Shown here: positions 3,843 to 17,692 of the stretch, piece by piece | Position numbering within the stretch: the first letter of the stretch is position 1 | How the letters are laid out: every line of letters begins with the position of its first letter | Source: Agrococcus lahaulensis DSM 17612 | GTDB taxonomy: Bacteria > Actinomycetota > Actinomycetes > Actinomycetales > Microbacteriaceae | Assembly: GCF_000425105.1 (NCBI RefSeq) | Contig: NZ_KE384303.1 | Location: 62,001 to 126,000 of the forward strand | DNA: 64,000 bases | Reading direction: 5' to 3' | Translations under genes and position numbers: made by a program | The notes under the pieces: generated by a model | What the model saw: the letters and a program-made list of their open reading frames with translations, nothing else | Databases searched by the model: none | What the model was told of the DNA's origin: nothing

Positions 3843-4781
3843 ATGCCTGCCGATCACGACGGAACCGTCCCGCTCGACGTGCCGGAGACGCCCGGCGAGA
3901 CGGTGCTGCCCGGCGGGGAGTACATCCGCGCGCGGCACGACGACGGCAAGCGCGACATGACGCGGCCCGACGTGCCCGAGCCGCTCGGCGTGCCGATCTA
4001 CGACAACCACACCCACCTCGAGATCAAGGACGGCGACGACTTCCCCTACTGGAAGGCGCTGGATGCGGCGGGCCGGGCCGGGGTCGCGGGCGTCATCCAG
4101 GTGGGTGGCGACGTCGAGTCGTCGGAGTGGTCGGCGGCGCTCGCGCGGCAGGACCCGCGCGTGCTCGCGGCGGTCGCGATCCACCCGAACGAGGCGCCCG
4201 GCTACGCAGAGGCCGGCACGCTCGACGAGGCGCTCGCCGTGATCGACCGGCTCGCGGCCGAGCCGCGCGTGCGAGCGGTCGGCGAGACGGGCCTCGACTT
4301 CTTCCGCACCGGGGAGGACGGTCGCCGCGCGCAGCACGAGTCGTTCGAGGCGCACATCGAGATCGCGAAGCGGCACGGCATCGCGCTGCAGATCCACGAC
4401 CGCGACGCGCACGACGCGGTCGTCGAGACGCTCCTGCGGGTCGGGGCGCCCGAGACGACCGTCTTCCACTGCTTCTCGGGCGACGCCGACCTCGCGCGCA
4501 CCGCCGCCGAGCACGGCTGGTACCTCTCGTTCGCCGGCACCGTGACCTTCTCGAACGCGAAGAACCTGCACGCGGCGCTCGAGGTCGCCGACCGGAGCCG
4601 CATCCTCGTCGAGACGGATGCGCCGTTCCTCACTCCCGCGCCGTTCCGCGGGCGGCCCAACAGCCCCTACCTGACGCCGCTCACCGTGCGGTCGATGGCC
4701 GAGCGGCTCGGCGTCGACGCCGACGAGCTCGCGGCCGAGACGGCCGAGAACACGCTGCGCGCCTACGGCAGCTGGGCTTAG
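3843..4781 (+). CDS. TatD-family metal-dependent hydrolase (DNase-like)
   Basis: A 312-aa TIM-barrel metallohydrolase of the TatD family, whose members act as 3'-5' exonucleases or DNases. Metal ligands are visible: HTH with H56 and H58, the Glu of GETGLDFFR, the His of QIHDRD, the HCFSGD block, and the final Asp of ETDAPFL. About 50 residues precede the barrel, longer than in E. coli TatD and typical of actinobacterial members. The position upstream of rsmA and ispE is conserved in many actinobacteria. The stop codon lies in a short tandem duplication (4775-4801). Confidence 0.92.
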   Translation: MPADHDGTVPLDVPETPGETVLPGGEYIRARHDDGKRDMTRPDVPEPLGVPIYDNHTHLEIKDGDDFPYWKALDAAGRAGVAGVIQVGGDVESSEWSAALARQDPRVLAAVAIHPNEAPGYAEAGTLDEALAVIDRLAAEPRVRAVGETGLDFFRTGEDGRRAQHESFEAHIEIAKRHGIALQIHDRDAHDAVVETLLRVGAPETTVFHCFSGDADLARTAAEHGWYLSFAGTVTFSNAKNLHAALEVADRSRILVETDAPFLTPAPFRGRPNSPYLTPLTVRSMAERLGVDADELAAETAENTLRAYGSWA

Positions 4782-5898: not shown

Positions 5899-6786
5899 GT
5901 GAGCACGGAGGAGACGCCTGGGCAGTCGAGCGCAACCGGTCAGGGGAGCGCGGACGCACTGCTCGGGGCTGCGGAGATCCGCTCGCTCGCCGCGCGGCTC
6001 GACCTGACGCCGACGAAGCGGTGGGGGCAGAACTTCGTGGTCGACGCGAACACCGTGCGCCGCATCGTGCGGACGGCGGATGTCGCGGGTCGCGACGTCG
6101 TGGAGGTCGGCCCGGGCCTCGGCTCGCTGACGCTCGGCCTCACCGAGGCGGGCGCGAGGGTCGCGGCGGTGGAGATCGACCCGCGGCTCGCGGAGCTGCT
6201 GCCCGAGACCGTCGGCCGGAAGCAGCCGGATGCGCGGCTCGAGGTCGTGCACCACGACGCGCTCACGATCGAGTCGCTGCCGTTCGCGCCCGAGGCGATC
6301 GTCGCGAACCTGCCCTACAACGTCTCGGTGCCCGTGCTCATCCACCTGCTCGAGCGGTTCCCGACGATCGAGCGTGCGCTCGTGATGGTGCAGGCCGAGG
6401 TCGGCCACCGGCTCGCGGCGAAGCCCGGCTCGAAGACCTACGGCTCGCCGTCGGCGAAGGTCGCGTGGTGGGGGCCGTGGGCGCTCGAGGGCGAGGTCTC
6501 GCGGCAGATCTTCTGGCCGGTGCCGAACGTCGACAGCGTGCTCGTCGGCTTCCGACGGGGGCCCGCGCGCGGCTCGGAGGAGCTGCGGCGCGCGACGTTC
6601 GCCGTGATCGACGGCGCGTTCGGGCAGCGGCGGAAGATGCTGCGGCAAGCGCTCGCGGGCGTCTTCGGCTCGGCGGCCGCCGCGACCGAGGTGCTCGAGC
6701 GCGCGGGCGTCGAGCCGACGCTGCGTGGCGAGGCGCTCGCGCTCGACGACTTCATCCGGATCGCCGAGGCGGGGCCCGCGCGCTGA
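5899..6786 (+). CDS. rsmA: 16S rRNA (adenine(1518)-N6/adenine(1519)-N6)-dimethyltransferase
   Basis: KsgA-family enzyme that dimethylates the adjacent adenines A1518 and A1519 of 16S rRNA during late 30S assembly. The SAM-binding motif VEVGPGLGSLT is at about residues 67-77 and the catalytic NLPYNVS motif at about 137-143. KRWGQNF near residue 35 is the family opening. It is 295 aa, with an Ala/Ser-rich N-terminal extension of about 25 residues. The GTG start is supported by the TAGGCT box 12 nt upstream. A very long hairpin lies downstream (6857-6917). Confidence 0.96.
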   Translation: MSTEETPGQSSATGQGSADALLGAAEIRSLAARLDLTPTKRWGQNFVVDANTVRRIVRTADVAGRDVVEVGPGLGSLTLGLTEAGARVAAVEIDPRLAELLPETVGRKQPDARLEVVHHDALTIESLPFAPEAIVANLPYNVSVPVLIHLLERFPTIERALVMVQAEVGHRLAAKPGSKTYGSPSAKVAWWGPWALEGEVSRQIFWPVPNVDSVLVGFRRGPARGSEELRRATFAVIDGAFGQRRKMLRQALAGVFGSAAAATEVLERAGVEPTLRGEALALDDFIRIAEAGPAR

Positions 6787-8499: not shown

Positions 8500-8582
8500 C
8501 GTGGGGCGGCGGATGCGGTCGGCGCGCTTGCGCGGTGGCTCGCGCCGCGCCGATGGGCGACGTGCGGGATGATGGAGGCGAT

Positions 8583-10382
<1,800 letters not shown>

Positions 10383-10435: not shown

Positions 10436-11407
10436 TCAGGCGGCGGCCGCGAGGCGATCGGCGAGCGCGCCGAGCGCCTCCGCGCCGGCGAGATCGCCGG
10501 GCAGCAGCGGCACCTGCGCGATCGGGATGTCGTCCGTCGCGTCGCGCAGGACGGCGAGGTGCTGCTCCTCCTGCGAGCGCCGCTCGGCGAGCAGCGGCCC
10601 GGCATCGGCAGGGGAGCGGCGGTTCACCACGACTGCGGCGGGAGCGACGCCGAGCTCGCGCAGCTGCCGCACGACGTCGATCGACTCGGCGACCGGCAGC
10701 CGCTCGGCGATCGCGACGACGACGAACGCGGTCCGCGCCGGGTCGGTGATGGCGGAGCGCAGCAGCGCGAAGCGATCCCTGCGCGCGATGAGGGTGCGGC
10801 GGAGCTGCGCGTCAGCCGAGGGCTGCTCGTCGCGCGTGCCGACGACGCTGCGCGCGGCGGCCGCGAAGCGGTCGGAGCGGTCGCGATTGGCCAGCAGCGT
10901 CTCCGTCCAGCCCGTGAGCTGCTCGGGCAGCGCGAGCAGCCGCAGCGTGTGCCCCGACGGCGCGGTGTCGAAGACGATGAGGTCGTGCGTCTCGAGGCCC
11001 GTCGCGACGAGCTCGGCGATGCGCTCGAGCACCGCGGACTCGTGGCTGCCCGGCGCCGTGCGCGCCCGGTCGAGGTGTGCGCTCGCGGAGGCGTGCAGGC
11101 GCTCGGGCAGGAGGTGCCGCATCGTGTCGGCGACGGAGGCGAAGTGGCGCTCGATCGTCTTCTGCGGGTCGATCTCGACCGCGTCGACCAGGCCGCGGCC
11201 GGCTGTGAGCACGCGGGTGGGCGCATCCCCGAGCGCCTCGCGCCACACGTGACCGAGGTTGTGGGCGGGGTCGGTCGAGACGAGCAGCACGCGCGCGCCA
11301 TCGCGCGCCCGGGCGAGCGCGAGCGCGGCGGCGACTGAGGTCTTCCCGACTCCGCCCTTGCCGCCGACGAACAGGATGCGGCGCGAGCGCGCGATGGTCA
11401 GCAGCAT
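10436..11407 (-). CDS. ArsA/GET3-family ATPase
   Basis: A 323-aa soluble P-loop ATPase of the ArsA/GET3 (SIMIBI) class. The deviant Walker A KGGVGKTS is at residues 17-24, followed by STDPAHN (switch I) and the DTAPSGHTLRLL motif (A-loop/switch II). The single-domain size matches GET3-like rather than duplicated ArsA proteins. ArsA relatives chaperone metalloid pumps, and GET3 relatives bind hydrophobic tails of membrane proteins. No ars genes are nearby. The ATG overlaps the end of the upstream small Cys-Cys protein gene by 10 bases, so translation is coupled and the two products probably act together with the CstA-type transporter. Confidence 0.88.
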   Translation of the reverse strand: MLLTIARSRRILFVGGKGGVGKTSVAAALALARARDGARVLLVSTDPAHNLGHVWREALGDAPTRVLTAGRGLVDAVEIDPQKTIERHFASVADTMRHLLPERLHASASAHLDRARTAPGSHESAVLERIAELVATGLETHDLIVFDTAPSGHTLRLLALPEQLTGWTETLLANRDRSDRFAAAARSVVGTRDEQPSADAQLRRTLIARRDRFALLRSAITDPARTAFVVVAIAERLPVAESIDVVRQLRELGVAPAAVVVNRRSPADAGPLLAERRSQEEQHLAVLRDATDDIPIAQVPLLPGDLAGAEALGALADRLAAAA

Positions 11408-11691
11408 GCGATGTGGTCCAGCGGCGAGTCGGGGATGCCGATGCGGCGGTGCCAGGCGTGGAAGTCCTGCCACACCGCGGGCAGCAGCTCGGCCGAGTAG
11501 TACGCGGCGGGATCGGGCACCCCGAGCGCCTCGCCCAGCACGACGACCATGAAGAGGTCGTCCTCGTCGCGCTGCTCCCGCAGCAGCGTCTGGCGGTACG
11601 GGCCGACGTAGAACTCGTGCAGACCCGCGCGCAGCGCGGCCCAGCGCCGGGAGACCTGCTCCCGGCGCTGGGCGCGCTCGTGCGAGGGCAC
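11398..11691 (-). CDS. Small protein ending in Cys-Cys (cory-CC-star type)
   Basis: A 97-aa protein whose last two residues are Cys-Cys, matching what I recall as the actinobacterial 'cory-CC-star' family. Conserved-looking parts are HEFYVGPYRQTLLREQRDEDD in the first half, then ALGVPDPAAYYSAEL and FHAWHRRIGIPDSPLDHIACC at the end. It lies between cstA (3-bp gap) and the ArsA-type gene (10-base overlap). This is the position where E. coli CstA has YbdD, a small protein that as I recall also ends in Cys-Cys, though the bodies look unrelated. The function is unproven; a CstA accessory subunit is my inference. Confidence 0.8.
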   Translation of the reverse strand: MPSHERAQRREQVSRRWAALRAGLHEFYVGPYRQTLLREQRDEDDLFMVVVLGEALGVPDPAAYYSAELLPAVWQDFHAWHRRIGIPDSPLDHIACC

Positions 11692-11694
11692 GCG

Positions 11695-13422
11695 TCAGAC
11701 GGACTCGCGCTCGGTCGCGAGCGAGGCGTCCTCGTCCTCGTCCTCCGGCGGCCCCTTGACCGCGCGGCGCATCGCGAGCACCGCCTCGATGGCGACCCAG
11801 ACGCTCGCGATGATGATGACGACGTCGATCGCGAACAGCAGCCAGTCGGCGTTGTCGGGAGCGGTGAAGCCGACGAGCTGCTCGAGCGCGGCCCAGAACG
11901 ACAGCACGAACACGAGCACGAGCGGGATGATCGCCGGCAGCGGGTTGCGCCGCTTGCGGATGAGCATGACCGCGATGATCGAGAGCGAGAGGGACGCGAG
12001 CAGCTGGTTCGTCGTGCCGAACAGCGGCCAGATGCGCAGGCCGCCCTCGCCGCCGAGCCCTTGCGAGAACGTCAGGCCGAGGCCGACGACCACGACGACG
12101 AGGGTCGCGGGCACCTTGGTGATGCGCACCTTCAGGGTCTGGCCGATCTCCTGCACGATGAAGCGCAGCAGTCGCATGCCGGTGTCCATGGTCGTGGCCG
12201 CGAACAGCACGGCCATGGTCGCGAGCACCGTCGCGCTCAGCGACGCGGGCAGGCCGAGCCCGTTCTCGAGCAGCGCCCCGCCGCCCTGCACGAACGCGTT
12301 GACACCGCCGGCGCCGAACTCGCTGTAGATCTCGCGCCATGCGCCGGCCGACTGGATGCCGCCGATGACCGCGAGGATCGTGCCGAGCGAGAGCAGGCCC
12401 TCGCCGACCGCGCCGAAGTAGCCGACGAAGCGGGCGTCGGTCTCCTTGTCGATCTGCTTCGAGGTCGTGCCGGAGGACACCATGCCGTGGAAGCCGGAGA
12501 TCGCGCCGCACGCGATCGTGACGAACAGCAGCGGCACGAGGCTCGGCGTGCCCGGCGGCAGGTCGGTGTTGAACATGGGCGCGACGATCTCGGGCTTCAC
12601 GGCGCCGAACAGCGTCGCGATGAGCACCGAGCCGAACAGCAGGATGAGCCCGACGAAGAGCTGGACGCCGTTGATGTAGTCGCGCGGCTGCAGCAGCACC
12701 CACACCGGCAGCAGCGACGCGATCGCGCCGTAGACGAACAGGGCGAGGATCCAGAACGTCGCGGGCGTCATGCCGAGGAAGCTCTCGGGCAGCACGACCG
12801 GCACGCTGTCGCCGAGCACGATGAGCGCGTACAGCGCCACGACGCCGACGATCGTGACGGGGATGAGCGGCCACCGCATCCGGTAGACCGCGACTCCGAC
12901 GAGGAGGGCGACGATGATCGCGCCCCACGTCGGGATGACGGCCGTCGGCGTGCTGATGAGGAGGTTCTTGATGACGACGGCGAACGCGGCGATCACCATC
13001 AGCAGCAGGAGGAAGATGACGACGAGGAAGAGGTTGGCGCCGCGCTTGCCGATGTAGCGGCCCGAGAGCGCGCCGATCGACTTGCCCTTGTTGCGCAGCG
13101 ACGCCCACAGCGTGCCGAGGTCGTGCATGCCGGCGAAGAAGACCGTGCCGATCGTGACCCACAGGAACGCCGGCAGCCAGCCCCAGATGACCGCGATGGC
13201 CGGTCCGACGATCGGGGCCGCGCCCGCGACCGACGTGAAGTGGTGGCCCCAGAGGATGAACTTGTTCGTGGGCACGTAGTCGACGCCGTCGCCCAGCTCG
13301 TGCGCCGGGGTCCTGAACGCGCTGCTGAGCCGGAACACCCGCTTGCCCAGGTACTTGGAGTAGACGAGGTAGCCGGCTGCGAACATCGCCAGACCGATGA
13401 GCATGAGGACCAACGAACCCAT
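11695..13422 (-). CDS. cstA: Carbon starvation protein A (CstA-type transporter)
   Basis: A 575-aa polytopic membrane protein with roughly 16 hydrophobic segments. CstA/BtsT-family signatures include DYVPTNKFILWGHHF and SVAGAAPIVGPA near residues 48-75, the GMHDLGTLWASLRNKGKS loop, and SGFHGMVSSGTTSKQI. E. coli homologues import pyruvate by proton symport and peptides have also been proposed, so the substrate here is inferred. The C-terminus is acidic and cytosolic. A GGAAGGGAAGAG ribosome-binding site precedes the ATG. It heads a three-gene operon and is divergent from mtrA. Confidence 0.93.
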   Translation of the reverse strand: MGSLVLMLIGLAMFAAGYLVYSKYLGKRVFRLSSAFRTPAHELGDGVDYVPTNKFILWGHHFTSVAGAAPIVGPAIAVIWGWLPAFLWVTIGTVFFAGMHDLGTLWASLRNKGKSIGALSGRYIGKRGANLFLVVIFLLLLMVIAAFAVVIKNLLISTPTAVIPTWGAIIVALLVGVAVYRMRWPLIPVTIVGVVALYALIVLGDSVPVVLPESFLGMTPATFWILALFVYGAIASLLPVWVLLQPRDYINGVQLFVGLILLFGSVLIATLFGAVKPEIVAPMFNTDLPPGTPSLVPLLFVTIACGAISGFHGMVSSGTTSKQIDKETDARFVGYFGAVGEGLLSLGTILAVIGGIQSAGAWREIYSEFGAGGVNAFVQGGGALLENGLGLPASLSATVLATMAVLFAATTMDTGMRLLRFIVQEIGQTLKVRITKVPATLVVVVVGLGLTFSQGLGGEGGLRIWPLFGTTNQLLASLSLSIIAVMLIRKRRNPLPAIIPLVLVFVLSFWAALEQLVGFTAPDNADWLLFAIDVVIIIASVWVAIEAVLAMRRAVKGPPEDEDEDASLATERESV

Positions 13423-13621
13423 GGGCTCTTCCCTTCCGTTGCGTGCGCCGTTGCACTGGATGCGGGCGGGCGATGCCCGCTCTCCTCGACCCTAGCGGCA
13501 CCTCCGAGGCACCTGGGATGACTTGCACCACGCGCGAGATTGCGACGGCGCTCGACCTGGCCTGCCCGCGCGAGACGCTCGACTGCCGGGGCGCCCCGAC
13601 CATCCTCGAGGCCGACTCGGC

Positions 13622-13627
13622 TACCCT
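13622..13627 (+). promoter_or_regulatory. Candidate -10 box for mtrAB-lpqB
   Basis: TACCCT lies about 44 nt before the mtrA ATG, giving a leader of about 35 nt that contains GGAGGGGAG as ribosome-binding site. The 248-bp gap between cstA and mtrA holds the two divergent promoters; I see no clear -35. Confidence 0.35.
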
Positions 13628-13670
13628 GACGGGAGCCGCGCCGTCCCGCGGCGGTGGAGGGGAGCGCTCG

Positions 13671-14357
13671 ATGGCTGAGCAGACGATCCTCGTCGTCGAC
13701 GACGACCTCGCGCTCGCCGAGATGATCGGCATCGTGCTCGAGGCCGAGGGCTACCGGCTCGAGCACTGCGCCGACGGCTCGGATGCGCTCGACCGGTTCC
13801 GCGACGTCCGTCCCGACCTCGTGCTCCTCGACCTCATGCTCCCGGGCAAGGACGGCATCCAGATCTGCACCGAGATGCGCGAGGAGTCCGGCGTGCCGAT
13901 CATCATGCTCACCGCGAAGGGCGACCCGACCGACGTCGTGCTCGGCCTCGAGTCGGGGGCCGACGACTACGTCGTGAAGCCCTTCAACCCCAAGGAGCTC
14001 GTCGCGCGCGTGCGCACGCGGCTGCGCGCCCCGCGCCAGGAGGACGGCGGCGTGCTCAAGGTCGCCGACCTCGAGATCGACGTCGAGGGCCACCGCGTCA
14101 CGCGCGGAGGCGAGGCGATCGCCCTCACGCCGCTCGAGTTCGAGCTGCTCGTCACGCTCGCGCAGAAGCCCAACCAGGTCTTCTCGCGCGAGATGCTGCT
14201 CGAGCAGGTGTGGGGCTACCACTACAAGGCCGACACGCGCCTCGTGAACGTGCACGTGCAGCGGCTGCGCTCCAAGGTCGAGCGCGACGTCGACAACCCG
14301 GTGGTCGTCACGACCGTCCGCGGGGTCGGCTACCGCGCCGGCGCCCCCACCGGCTAG
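13671..14357 (+). CDS. mtrA: Two-component response regulator MtrA
   Basis: A 228-aa OmpR/PhoB-type response regulator. The receiver domain has the acidic pair D10-D12, phospho-acceptor D54 in VLLDLMLPGKDG, and the conserved Lys in VVKPFNPKELVARV. The C-terminal winged helix contains LTPLEFELLVTLAQKPNQVFSREMLL and the recognition region RLVNVHVQRLRSKVE. MtrA is the actinobacterial regulator of cell-wall and cell-division genes, and in mycobacteria it is essential. The order mtrA-mtrB-lpqB is conserved; mtrB starts 3 bp after the stop. Confidence 0.96.
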   Translation: MAEQTILVVDDDLALAEMIGIVLEAEGYRLEHCADGSDALDRFRDVRPDLVLLDLMLPGKDGIQICTEMREESGVPIIMLTAKGDPTDVVLGLESGADDYVVKPFNPKELVARVRTRLRAPRQEDGGVLKVADLEIDVEGHRVTRGGEAIALTPLEFELLVTLAQKPNQVFSREMLLEQVWGYHYKADTRLVNVHVQRLRSKVERDVDNPVVVTTVRGVGYRAGAPTG

Positions 14358-14360
14358 GCC

Positions 14361-16049
14361 ATGGCCGCGCGACGCCGCCCGATCTGGGAGACGGCGACGC
14401 GCGTGCTGCGGCGCTCGCTGCAGTGGCGCGTCGTCGCGGCGAGCATGGCGCTCTCGACCCTCGCGCTCGTCGGCGTCTTCGGCTACATGTCGCTCTCGGT
14501 CGGCCAGAACCTCTTCGAGACGCGCCGCGACGAGGCGCTCGTCGAGGCGGTGCGCGCCTCGGGCGAGATGCAGCAGATCTTCGACGAGGCGGTCACCGCG
14601 ACGCTCACGAGCGGCGAGGTGGATGCGCTGCAGGACCGCGCGCTCGATGCCGTCACGGGGCTCATCGCGAGCCGCACGTCGACCGAGTACGCCATGCTCC
14701 GCACCGACCGGCAGGGCGAGACGCTCCTGCAGATGAACGACGTGCAATCGCAGGCCTTCGACACCGACCTGCTCTCGTCCGAGCTTCGCGCGGCCGTCGC
14801 CAGCGCATCCGACACCGCGCCCTACTACCAGTCGGTGCGGCTCGAGCAGGGCGGCGGCTCGGAGCCCGCGATCATGGTCGGCACGACCGTCGACGTGCCG
14901 CTCGCTGGCCGCTACGAGCTCTACCTCCAGACGAGCCTGCAGTCGACGCAGGCGACGCTCGGCTTCATGCAGCTCACGATGGTGCTCGGCGGCCTCGCCC
15001 TCATCGCGCTCATCGGCCTCATCACGTGGTTCGTCGCTCGCATGGTCGTCGGGCCCGTGCAGCAGGCGGCCGACTCGGCGGCGCGCATCGCCGCCGGCGA
15101 GCTCGACGTGCGCATCCCGGTGCGCGGCGACGACGAGGTCGCGACGCTCGGTCGCTCGTTCAACGACATGGCCGACTCGATCGAGGTGCAGATCAACGAG
15201 CTCGCGACCCTCTCGACCGTGCAGCAGCGCTTCGTGAGCGACGTCTCGCACGAGCTGCGCACGCCGCTCACGACCATCAAGCTCGCGGGCGACGTGCTGC
15301 ACGATCGGCGCGAGGCGTTCGACCCCGTCGCCGGCCGCACGGTCGAGCTGCTGCACACGCAGATCGAGCGCTTCGAGCGCCTGCTCGCCGACCTGCTCGA
15401 GCTCAGCCGCTTCGACGCGGGCGCCGCGCAGCTCGAGATCGAGCCGACCAACCTCGTGCGGCTCGCGGAGGGCGAGATCGCGGCGCTCGAGCCGCTCGCG
15501 GCCGAGCACGGCAGCGAGCTGCGGCTCGTCGCTCCCGGCGGGCACTTCGAGGCGGAGGTCGACCCGCGCCGCATCCGGCGGATCCTGCAGAACCTGCTCG
15601 GCAACGCGATCGACCACGGCGAGGGGCGCCCGATCGTCGTGACCGTCGACTCGTCGAGCGACGCGGCCGCCATCGCGGTGCGCGACCACGGCGTCGGGAT
15701 GACCGAGGAGGAGGTCTCGCGCGTCTTCGACCGCTTCTGGCGCGCCGACCCGTCGCGCCAGCGCCGCACGGGCGGCACGGGCCTCGGGCTCTCGATCAGC
15801 CGCGACGACGCGGCGCTGCACGGCGGCTGGATCGACGTGTGGTCGCGGCCCGGGGAGGGCACCGCGTTCCGGCTCACGCTCCCGCGCGCCGGCGCCCGCG
15901 CCGTCGTCTCGCCCATCGACCTGCCGCCCGTCGAGGAGCCGCCGCGCGAGGCGCCGCCCGCGGAGGCCGCGGCCGACGACACGGCGAGCGCCCCCATCGC
16001 GCTCGTCGATCCCGCGACGCGCACGACGACCGAGGAGGTCGAGCGATGA
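14361..16049 (+). CDS. mtrB: Sensor histidine kinase MtrB
   Basis: A 562-aa membrane kinase that phosphorylates MtrA. Transmembrane segments lie at about residues 28-50 and 205-230 around an extracytoplasmic sensor domain. A HAMP domain follows (about 230-282). The DHp helix has SHELRTPL with the phospho-acceptor His at residue 297. The ATPase domain has NLLGNAIDHG, DHGVGM and TGLGLSISRD boxes. The C-terminal tail is Pro/Glu/Ala-rich and low in complexity. The stop overlaps the lpqB start (ATGA), so the two are translationally coupled. Confidence 0.96.
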   Translation: MAARRRPIWETATRVLRRSLQWRVVAASMALSTLALVGVFGYMSLSVGQNLFETRRDEALVEAVRASGEMQQIFDEAVTATLTSGEVDALQDRALDAVTGLIASRTSTEYAMLRTDRQGETLLQMNDVQSQAFDTDLLSSELRAAVASASDTAPYYQSVRLEQGGGSEPAIMVGTTVDVPLAGRYELYLQTSLQSTQATLGFMQLTMVLGGLALIALIGLITWFVARMVVGPVQQAADSAARIAAGELDVRIPVRGDDEVATLGRSFNDMADSIEVQINELATLSTVQQRFVSDVSHELRTPLTTIKLAGDVLHDRREAFDPVAGRTVELLHTQIERFERLLADLLELSRFDAGAAQLEIEPTNLVRLAEGEIAALEPLAAEHGSELRLVAPGGHFEAEVDPRRIRRILQNLLGNAIDHGEGRPIVVTVDSSSDAAAIAVRDHGVGMTEEEVSRVFDRFWRADPSRQRRTGGTGLGLSISRDDAALHGGWIDVWSRPGEGTAFRLTLPRAGARAVVSPIDLPPVEEPPREAPPAEAAADDTASAPIALVDPATRTTTEEVER

Positions 16050-17692
16050 AGCGCGTCCTCGCCGCCCTCGCCGCGCTGCTCGTGCTCACCGGCTGCGTCG
16101 CGATCCCCGACTCGGGGCCCGTGACCGCCGGCCGGGTCGACGACGCGGAGCAGGCGAGCGACCTCATCTTCATCGCCGAGTCGCCCCGCGTCGGAGCGAC
16201 GCAGGAGGAGATCGTGCGCGGCTTCCTCGCCGCCGCGATCACCCCCGACGACGACTTCGCGATCGCGCGGGAGTACCTCGTCTCGGGTGAGGCGGAGCGC
16301 TGGCGCCCCGAGGCCGGCGTCATCGTGCGCTCCGGCCAGCCCGAGGTCTCGCTCGGCGGCGAGACGGCGGCGACGGCGGTCGTGACGGCCGTCTCGGAGC
16401 TCGACGAGGGCGGCGCGCTCGAGCTCGTCGGCAGCGAGCGGATGCTCGAGTTCCGGATGCTGCGGGTCGCGGGGGAGTGGAGGATCGCGCAGGCTCCCGA
16501 CGGCATCGTCCTCTCCGCCTTCCACTTCACCCAGCTCTTCCGCTCGCACGCGCTCGCGTGGGTGACGCCGGACGGCACGCGCGCGGTGCCCGAGGTGCGC
16601 TGGTTCGAGCGCACCGCGTCCACCCTCGCGGGCCGGATGGTCGACGCGCTGCTCGACGGCCCGTCGACCTGGATCTCCCCCGCCGTCACGACCGCGGGCG
16701 CGCCCGAGGCGCGGCGCGTGGGCGAGCCGGTGGTCGAGGGCTCCGTCGCGACCGTGACGCTCGACTTCGCGCAGGTCGAGCAGCGCGGCAGCGGGAGCCT
16801 CCAGCAGCTCGCCGCGCAGCTCGCGCTCTCGCTGCGCTCGCTCGGCGTGCGCGAGGTGCGCGTCGAGATCGACGGGCTCGGCGGGCTCGCCGCCTCGAGC
16901 GCCGACGCCGCGCCCCTCGACGACGGCGACGTCGACCAGCGCCCGCTCGTGCTCGACGGGTCGACGCTCCGGCCGATCGGAGGCGGCCAGTCCGGCATCG
17001 ACGACGTCGGGCCGACCCTCGCCTCGATCGGTGCGACGGACTACACCGTAGGCGCCGCGGGCGGTGTCGCGACGACCGGCACGACCGCGCTCTGGCTCGC
17101 GCCCGGCGCCGACCCCGTCGCGGTCTCGGCCGACGCCGCGCTCCCCGCGACGACCGACGACAGCGGGTGGGTGATCGTGCAGGAGACGGCGGCGCCGCAG
17201 CGGTTGCTCGCCTGGCGCGAGGGCGAGCGCGCCGAGCTCCAGCTGCCGCCGGGCGCCGATCGCATCGCGGCGATCGAGCTCTCGCGCGACGGCGCGCGGC
17301 TCGCGATCACGACGGTCGACGGGAGCGTGAGCCAGGTGTGGGTCGCGGCGGTCATCCGCGACGCCGGCGCCCGCCCGGTCGCGCTCGGCGAGCCGTATGC
17401 GCTCCCGCGCGTCGACGGCGCCGCGAGCGACATCACCTGGACGAGCGCGACCCAGGTCGCGGTGCTCGCCGCAGCCGGCGATCAGTCGCAGATCGTGCTG
17501 CTCGAGGTCGGCGGCGCGTCCGAGCAGCTGCCGGCTCCGGGCGAGCCGGTGCGCGCCGTCGTCGGCGGCAGCGAGGGCGCGTCGACGCTCCGCGCGCTCG
17601 GCGTCGACGGCTCGCTGCTCGCGCTGCGGGGCAGCGTCTGGAGCCCCGTGCCCGGGCTCGGTCCCGTCGCGCTCGTCGCGACCCAGCAGTAG
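16046..17692 (+). CDS. lpqB: Lipoprotein LpqB with GerMN domain
   Basis: A 548-aa lipoprotein with signal peptide and lipobox VLTGC, Cys at residue 17. A Sporulation/GerMN-type domain spans about residues 170-290, followed by a beta-propeller-like C-terminal half with repeated short strands. In mycobacteria LpqB interacts with the MtrB sensor domain and tunes MtrA phosphorylation; the conserved operon position supports the same role. It begins inside the mtrB stop codon (ATGA overlap). Confidence 0.94.
   Translation: MKRVLAALAALLVLTGCVAIPDSGPVTAGRVDDAEQASDLIFIAESPRVGATQEEIVRGFLAAAITPDDDFAIAREYLVSGEAERWRPEAGVIVRSGQPEVSLGGETAATAVVTAVSELDEGGALELVGSERMLEFRMLRVAGEWRIAQAPDGIVLSAFHFTQLFRSHALAWVTPDGTRAVPEVRWFERTASTLAGRMVDALLDGPSTWISPAVTTAGAPEARRVGEPVVEGSVATVTLDFAQVEQRGSGSLQQLAAQLALSLRSLGVREVRVEIDGLGGLAASSADAAPLDDGDVDQRPLVLDGSTLRPIGGGQSGIDDVGPTLASIGATDYTVGAAGGVATTGTTALWLAPGADPVAVSADAALPATTDDSGWVIVQETAAPQRLLAWREGERAELQLPPGADRIAAIELSRDGARLAITTVDGSVSQVWVAAVIRDAGARPVALGEPYALPRVDGAASDITWTSATQVAVLAAAGDQSQIVLLEVGGASEQLPAPGEPVRAVVGGSEGASTLRALGVDGSLLALRGSVWSPVPGLGPVALVATQQ

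Follow-up and report, generated by a model that had tools for sequence, protein, structure and literature searches.

In a 64,000-nucleotide stretch of the genome of Agrococcus lahaulensis DSM 17612 (contig NZ_KE384303.1, positions 62,001 to 126,000; hereafter the window), three tightly coupled genes encode a membrane transporter of the CstA family, a small protein of the cory-CC-star family (Cory) and a single-domain ATPase of the Get3/ArsA type. On balance we favour the reading that these genes form one CstA-type uptake system, in which Cory replaces the small partner known from Escherichia coli as YbdD or YjiX (family DUF466) and a dedicated ATPase acts through Cory. The operon type and the idea of energization by the ATPase are not new, since both were described by Castillo and Saier in 2010 (PMC2963123). 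Added here are counts of how strictly Cory, ATPase and CstA are paired, the invariance of two histidines (H78 and H81) in Cory, the alternation of the system with DUF466, and the loci of a fourth gene, here called CCG, found in relatives.

The operon and its three genes

All three genes lie on the minus strand of the window. The cstA gene (11695-13422) encodes a transporter of 575 amino acids that scores 429.4 bits against PF02554 (gathering cut-off 27) in two match pieces, 2-352 and 408-560, and belongs to a short type in which the match breaks near 352/406. After a gap of 3 bp (11692-11694), and in the same frame, follows cory (11398-11691), which has a GTG start and encodes 97 amino acids ending in DHIACC, the stop standing directly after Cys-Cys; the product matches NF041419 with 114.9 bits (curated cut-off 80) over model positions 2-80 of 80. 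The ATPase gene (10436-11407) encodes 323 amino acids with the motif GGKGGVGKTS and scores 212.2 bits against TIGR00345 (GET3_arsA_TRC40; curated cut-off 135) and 198 bits against PF02374. An overlap of 10 bases (11398-11407) joins it to cory, such that both Cys codons and the stop of cory overlap the ATPase start. An earlier note, made from the letters of the window alone, had described this arrangement, and all three open reading frames lie where it placed them.

The overlap with the ATPase start is rejected as the sole cause of the Cys-Cys end, which is retained at loci with a gap between the two genes: in Cytobacillus, where cory ends at 6204 and the ATPase starts at 6227, and at locus L137, where the cory frame ends at 4509 and the ATPase frame opens at 4536.

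Conservation of the unit and of the Cys-Cys end

Cory loci were collected mostly via Cory and some via CstA, none by requesting the trio, and identical tails were collapsed before counting, both here and in the residue comparison below. Among 52 distinct Cory-like proteins, 43 end in Cys-Cys (the CC type). An ATPase gene lies downstream on the same strand in 43 of these 43 and CstA upstream in 42, the exception (L015) beginning at a contig end, so that the conserved three-part unit suspected in the earlier note is borne out. Its further expectation of a conserved Cys-Cys end holds for the main type and fails for the remaining nine proteins, all from the four genomes (G034, G037, G179, G213) of one divergent type. 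A family search over 246 genomes from the phylum of the window found Cory in 23, with 17 exceeding the cut-off, and in 6 of 398 Pseudomonadota genomes, all six above the cut-off and adjoined by CstA and ATPase; a weak match in G240 (23 bits, L023), with no gene of the system beside it, was set aside. In line with this phylum being Actinomycetota, a run of 3,500 bases from L135, a locus of the same phylum, is identical to part of L102, from a Euzebyales metagenome-assembled genome. Six plasmid records carry the Cory system, and the plasmid annotations of Paracoccus, Pseudochrobactrum and Cytobacillus, members of two further phyla, name the three products 'carbon starvation protein A', 'cory-CC-star protein' and 'ArsA family ATPase'. 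Since the gene order is identical across three phyla, the arrangement is not due to chance.

In an alignment of 46 CC-type tails, G57, P61, H78, H81 and G85 are invariant; the invariance of C96 and C97 in these sets is the selection criterion itself, and 21 of the 46 rows have an alignment gap at column 97. Both H78 and H81 are present in 46/46 CC-type and in 0/9 CC-less proteins, which keep G57 and W80, and so, judged from these sequences, the His pair and the Cys pair go together, a protein having both or neither. The predicted structure of Cory is weak (predicted template-modelling score, pTM, 0.38) and has no obvious membrane segment; a fold search with it returned three matches (best E 5.6), and sequence searches of the PDB with CstA and with Cory returned none.

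As far as contig breaks allow, the CC-less genomes carry two Cory and two ATPase genes beside one CstA: duplication of Cory goes with duplication of the ATPase, and CstA stays single. One of the two ATPases has Asn in place of the switch I Asp, which we take to be catalytic in Get3. Loci of this doubled type, with two Cory-like proteins lacking Cys-Cys and two ATPases, are L098, L138, L097, L024 and L025; a plasmid search with a CC-less Cory gave no match.

Cory in the place of DUF466

Presence and absence were compared over 60 genomes, namely the window's own and 59 relatives. A long CstA occurs in 22 of them and DUF466 in the same 22, while the short CstA occurs in 16, of which 15 carry Cory; the long CstA of G297 also matches in two pieces (1-373 and 387-560), but its first piece reaches 557 bits. 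Within the genus (24 genomes, the window's own included), Cory, the short CstA and any PF02374 ATPase (E <= 1e-10) are found in the same 11 genomes, and the long CstA and DUF466 in the same 12. One genome (G264) holds both systems, and two, G248 (78% complete) and G267, hold neither. These genomes are related and therefore do not amount to 24 independent trials. A phylogenetic tree of CstA (82 rows) agrees: 36 Cory-linked rows, three with CCG only and one cut by a contig end form one group, with support of 99 in the SH-like approximate likelihood ratio test (SH-aLRT), DUF466-type rows form another, lone CstA rows fall outside the Cory group and the CC-less rows lie elsewhere; the tree was made by a quick method, with long branches flagged and near-identical sequences omitted.

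Given this alternation between short CstA, Cory and ArsA-type ATPase on one side and long CstA with DUF466 on the other, Cory, by gene content, takes the place of DUF466, as the earlier note had supposed. The replacement is without detectable homology. Detectable homology of the two small proteins is rejected, as the comparison of hidden Markov models that the note had called for yielded an hhalign probability of 2.5% and an alignment limited to the last 17 columns, and the window Cory does not match PF04328 (DUF466). The statement of the note that DUF466 proteins likewise end in Cys-Cys proved right for 15 of the 23 rows here and wrong for the other eight, which end in Cys-Pro, so that DUF466 proteins do not all keep the final Cys. 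The Cys-Pro rows are L031, L032, L035, L036, L039, L040, L048 and L071.

What the available text of two papers reports suggests, by analogy, an active role for small CstA partners: DUF466 of Helicobacter hepaticus, H. cinaedi and Campylobacter lari ends in Cys-selenocysteine (Cys-Sec), read by the authors as a hint of redox activity (PMC4607533), and constitutive pyruvate uptake in E. coli requires both cstA and ybdD (PMC5847655). Because of these Cys-Sec ends, the Cys-Cys ends of DUF466 and the need for ybdD, a chemical role of the terminal Cys pair of Cory is favoured, a metal site being as possible as a redox site. The Cys-Cys ends common to both families and the C-terminal Sec reported for DUF466 point to a chemical step, for which the text available describes no assay. 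A genus with long CstA and DUF466 in some species and short CstA, Cory and ATPase in others offers a natural comparison.

CstA also stands alone in places: lone short CstA loci without small partners are L079-L081, L083-L090, L092, L093 and L164-L166, and CstA stands alone on haloarchaeal and Butyrivibrio plasmids as well.

The ATPase

The window ATPase contains no cysteine, and no alignment column of 44 linked ATPases holds Cys in at least 30% of rows; a metalloid-binding ATPase is therefore rejected. Against the ArsA model TIGR04291 it scores 137.7 bits, far short of the cut-off of 650, and the metalloid-binding cysteines are absent. In the genome of the window PF02374 matches no protein but the operon ATPase at E <= 1e-10. 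Elsewhere in the phylum, many genomes with CstA also carry a generic Get3-like ATPase, and hence a statement that the operon holds the only ArsA-type gene of a genome is restricted to the genus.

In a tree of 70 ATPase rows, a branch with 100/100 support separates 45 linked rows, five of the doubled type and two ArsA-like ones (L180 and L181, so labelled by their position in the tree alone) from 18 generic Get3-like ATPases. The tree omits near-identical sequences, 13 rows labelled 'bag' (by pairing and low score) and a fused ArsA (L148) that fell among the linked rows in the 44-ATPase comparison. One linked ATPase, L018, grouped with unlinked rows on a weak branch in that comparison but not in the 70-row tree.

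A fourth gene in relatives

In some relatives cstA is immediately followed by a gene for an unnamed thioredoxin-like family with an internal Cys-Cys-Gly (CCG; for example L099:5568-5993, L104:5564-5971, L082:5713-6123, L123 and others), after which Cory and ATPase may or may not come next. A search with three CCG proteins over 396 genomes of the phylum matched 24; three matches were weak (E 4e-4 to 8e-4) and one genome (G772) was not fetched, which left 20 for analysis. At 15 of these 20 loci CCG is followed by Cory and ATPase, with CstA before CCG in 14 and a contig start in the remaining one (G108); the other five hold CstA and CCG only. Six loci in all have CstA and CCG without Cory or ATPase (G183, G236, G713, G763, G841 and G296). 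Whole-genome searches found no Cory in G183, G236 and G296, whereas in G713, G763 and G841 the absence of Cory and ATPase was judged over about 1.5 kb downstream only; the high-scoring unlinked ATPase of G183 belongs to the generic clade. Cory and ATPase thus occur jointly or not at all, and related CstA exist without both. As the same loci keep CCG and CstA while Cory and ATPase are jointly absent, the ATPase probably acts through Cory. That CCG replaces Cory is rejected, since CCG sits between CstA and Cory in many loci. The genome of the window has no CCG match, and its clade is without CCG.

The CCG protein, with the motif V-R-E-W...G-C-C-G, matches no family over cut-off, its weak thioredoxin-like matches having E values of 0.021 and 0.027 (each the best of 3/6 members). 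Its structure model (pTM 0.75), with Cys-Cys in a low-confidence loop, appears to us to have the thioredoxin order of elements, and its best PDB matches are the thioredoxin MTH895 and ArsD, the latter in four of the top six rows, at weak E values of 0.29-0.78.

On a plasmid of Cytobacillus spongiae, the CCG gene (L122:5549-5917) contains one in-frame TGA, which stands at the position of the pair's first Cys and lies 16 codons past an ATG; the annotated gene begins after the TGA. The RNA from the TGA onward folds into a hairpin whose loop reads GGUG (-13.4 kcal/mol, z -2.36; 4 of 200 shuffles did as well). The loops of bacterial selenocysteine insertion sequences (SECIS) often hold GGU. Rfam listed five matches for the region, none near its gathering score and none a SECIS. 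The TGA is a candidate selenocysteine codon, with a nonsense mutation also possible. A literature search combining selenoprotein, carbon starvation and thioredoxin-like gave nothing on topic by title, most subscription journals being outside its reach.

How the system may work

In the reading favoured here, CstA would be the transporter in the membrane, its substrate being pyruvate or a similar small molecule if the analogy with E. coli holds, and Cory a small, probably helical cytosolic accessory in the role of YbdD/YjiX. The H-x-x-H motif and the terminal Cys-Cys of Cory would together make up a single redox-active or metal-binding site required by the transporter. The ATPase, cysteine-free and dedicated to the system, would act through Cory; its ATP might serve to couple or gate CstA, or else to position Cory on the transporter. 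A role in driving transport and one in placing or switching Cory are about equally likely.

Each of these two uses has a sharper form that overlaps with the favoured reading. The ATPase may energize transport as in ArsAB, converting CstA from a secondary into an ATP-driven transporter with Cory as linker, as Castillo and Saier proposed, and this we regard as possible though less probable than the broader uptake system. It draws on the coevolution and operon analysis in the available part of their paper (PMC2963123), and on the linked ATPases sharing their side of the 100/100 branch with the two ArsA-like rows, apart from the generic ones. However, related CstA without an ATPase exist (the CCG-only loci and the lone short CstA), CstA of the DUF466 type lacks one, a published description of E. 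coli BtsT makes it a pyruvate/H+ symporter (PMC12632267), and the copy number of the ATPase tracks Cory rather than CstA. A slightly more doubtful alternative, put forward in the earlier note, makes the ATPase a targeting or assembly factor that places Cory on CstA in the manner of Get3, transport itself not being driven by ATP. The Get3-type fold family (TIGR00345) fits such loading, as does the fact that Cory and ATPase are never apart in the 43 CC-type loci and are jointly absent from six; the lack of a conserved cysteine in the linked ATPases, which argues for the absence of an ArsA-type metalloid site, favours it too. It is opposed by the Cory model, with no obvious membrane segment, and by DUF466 and the CCG protein, which need no linked ATPase.

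Further from the favoured reading is a metalloid or thiol-stress system built like ars operons, with CstA for ArsB, CCG for ArsD and an ArsA-like ATPase. The appearance of MTH895 and ArsD among the PDB matches of CCG speaks for it, but those matches are weak, the window clade has no CCG gene, the ATPases lack a conserved cysteine and the available text of PMC2963123 finds no arsenic genes in such operons; we consider it improbable. Least probable of all is that the genes are neighbours without joint function that move together as a mobile block. The patchy spread (11 of 24 within the genus, 6 of 398 in Pseudomonadota, and the six plasmid records) would suit a mobile block, yet it would leave the constant order in three phyla, an ATPase beside all 43 CC-type Cory and the alternation with DUF466 to be explained.

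Several observations weigh against the uptake system as favoured here. Contact between its parts, its structure and its activity are predictions, and the Cory model is weak. The doubled type, which we regard as working, has neither H-x-x-H nor Cys-Cys; moreover, as the CC-less type is one clade, the joint loss of the two pairs may be a single event. In the survey of 246 genomes of the phylum, CstA was found in 64 and DUF466 in 23; 13 of the 64 hold a short CstA for which the models used found no partner, and two long-CstA genomes (G096 and G150) have no recognizable DUF466 beside CstA, so that a Cys-Cys partner is not universal.

More speculatively, and with considerable doubt on our part, CstA transporters of several clades might depend on thiol or selenol chemistry, each with its own unrelated partner carrying a vicinal Cys-Cys (or Cys/Sec) pair, namely DUF466, Cory or CCG. 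The Cory type would then add a dedicated ATPase and be an ATP-assisted, redox- or metal-gated importer, and the C. spongiae CCG protein would be an unrecognized Sec-Cys selenoprotein. If an ATPase of the ArsA superfamily does take part in nutrient import, the known functions of that superfamily would be widened, and the strict pairing rules make the powering or switching of CstA importers a testable question.

Relation to known systems

The text available of PMC2963123 lists 26 ArsA/CstA associations, 24 of them with a small protein named CstX, proposed to link ArsA to CstA; two organisms have ArsA genes side by side as a pair, and two have a CstX pair. An ATPase dedicated to a CstA accessory protein, which the earlier note did not know to be described, was thus on record, and the small protein is modelled in NCBIfam. 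The cstA-cstX-arsA operons share with the window a CstA, a small protein of some 90 amino acids, a single-domain ArsA of about 330 amino acids and the absence of arsR, and the window trio fits them in gene sizes and order; paired ArsA and paired CstX occur in some organisms. CstX is called a single-TMS (transmembrane segment) protein there; by size and place it is very probably Cory. DUF466 and YbdD have no occurrence in the text available of that paper. Among the matches listed for CstX, CstA and ArsA it was the only one relevant by title, and the name 'cory-CC-star' was absent from the literature searched, most subscription journals lying outside both this and the preceding search.

The CstA-YbdD and BtsT-YjiX systems of E. 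coli pyruvate transport share the CstA-family transporter and an adjacent small partner ending in Cys-Cys, but they have a long CstA, no ATPase and a partner not detectably homologous to Cory. The ArsAB arsenite pump has the same layout of membrane transporter and ArsA-superfamily ATPase; its transporter is unrelated, and the window ATPase is single-domain, cysteine-free and far below the ArsA cut-off. Get3/TRC40, the factor for tail-anchored protein targeting, is a single-domain ATPase of the same family (TIGR00345), whereas the window ATPase is dedicated to one transporter operon and falls in another clade than the phylum's generic Get3-like ATPases.

Neighbouring genes

A tRNA scan of the window found none. 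Adjoining cstA and divergent from it are open reading frames for a response regulator, a sensor kinase and a lipoprotein-like protein (window 13443-17692, plus strand), which presumably resemble MtrA-MtrB-LpqB. On the other side, an open reading frame for an ABC-F-like ATPase (window 8535-10382, plus strand) is convergent with the ATPase gene of the operon.

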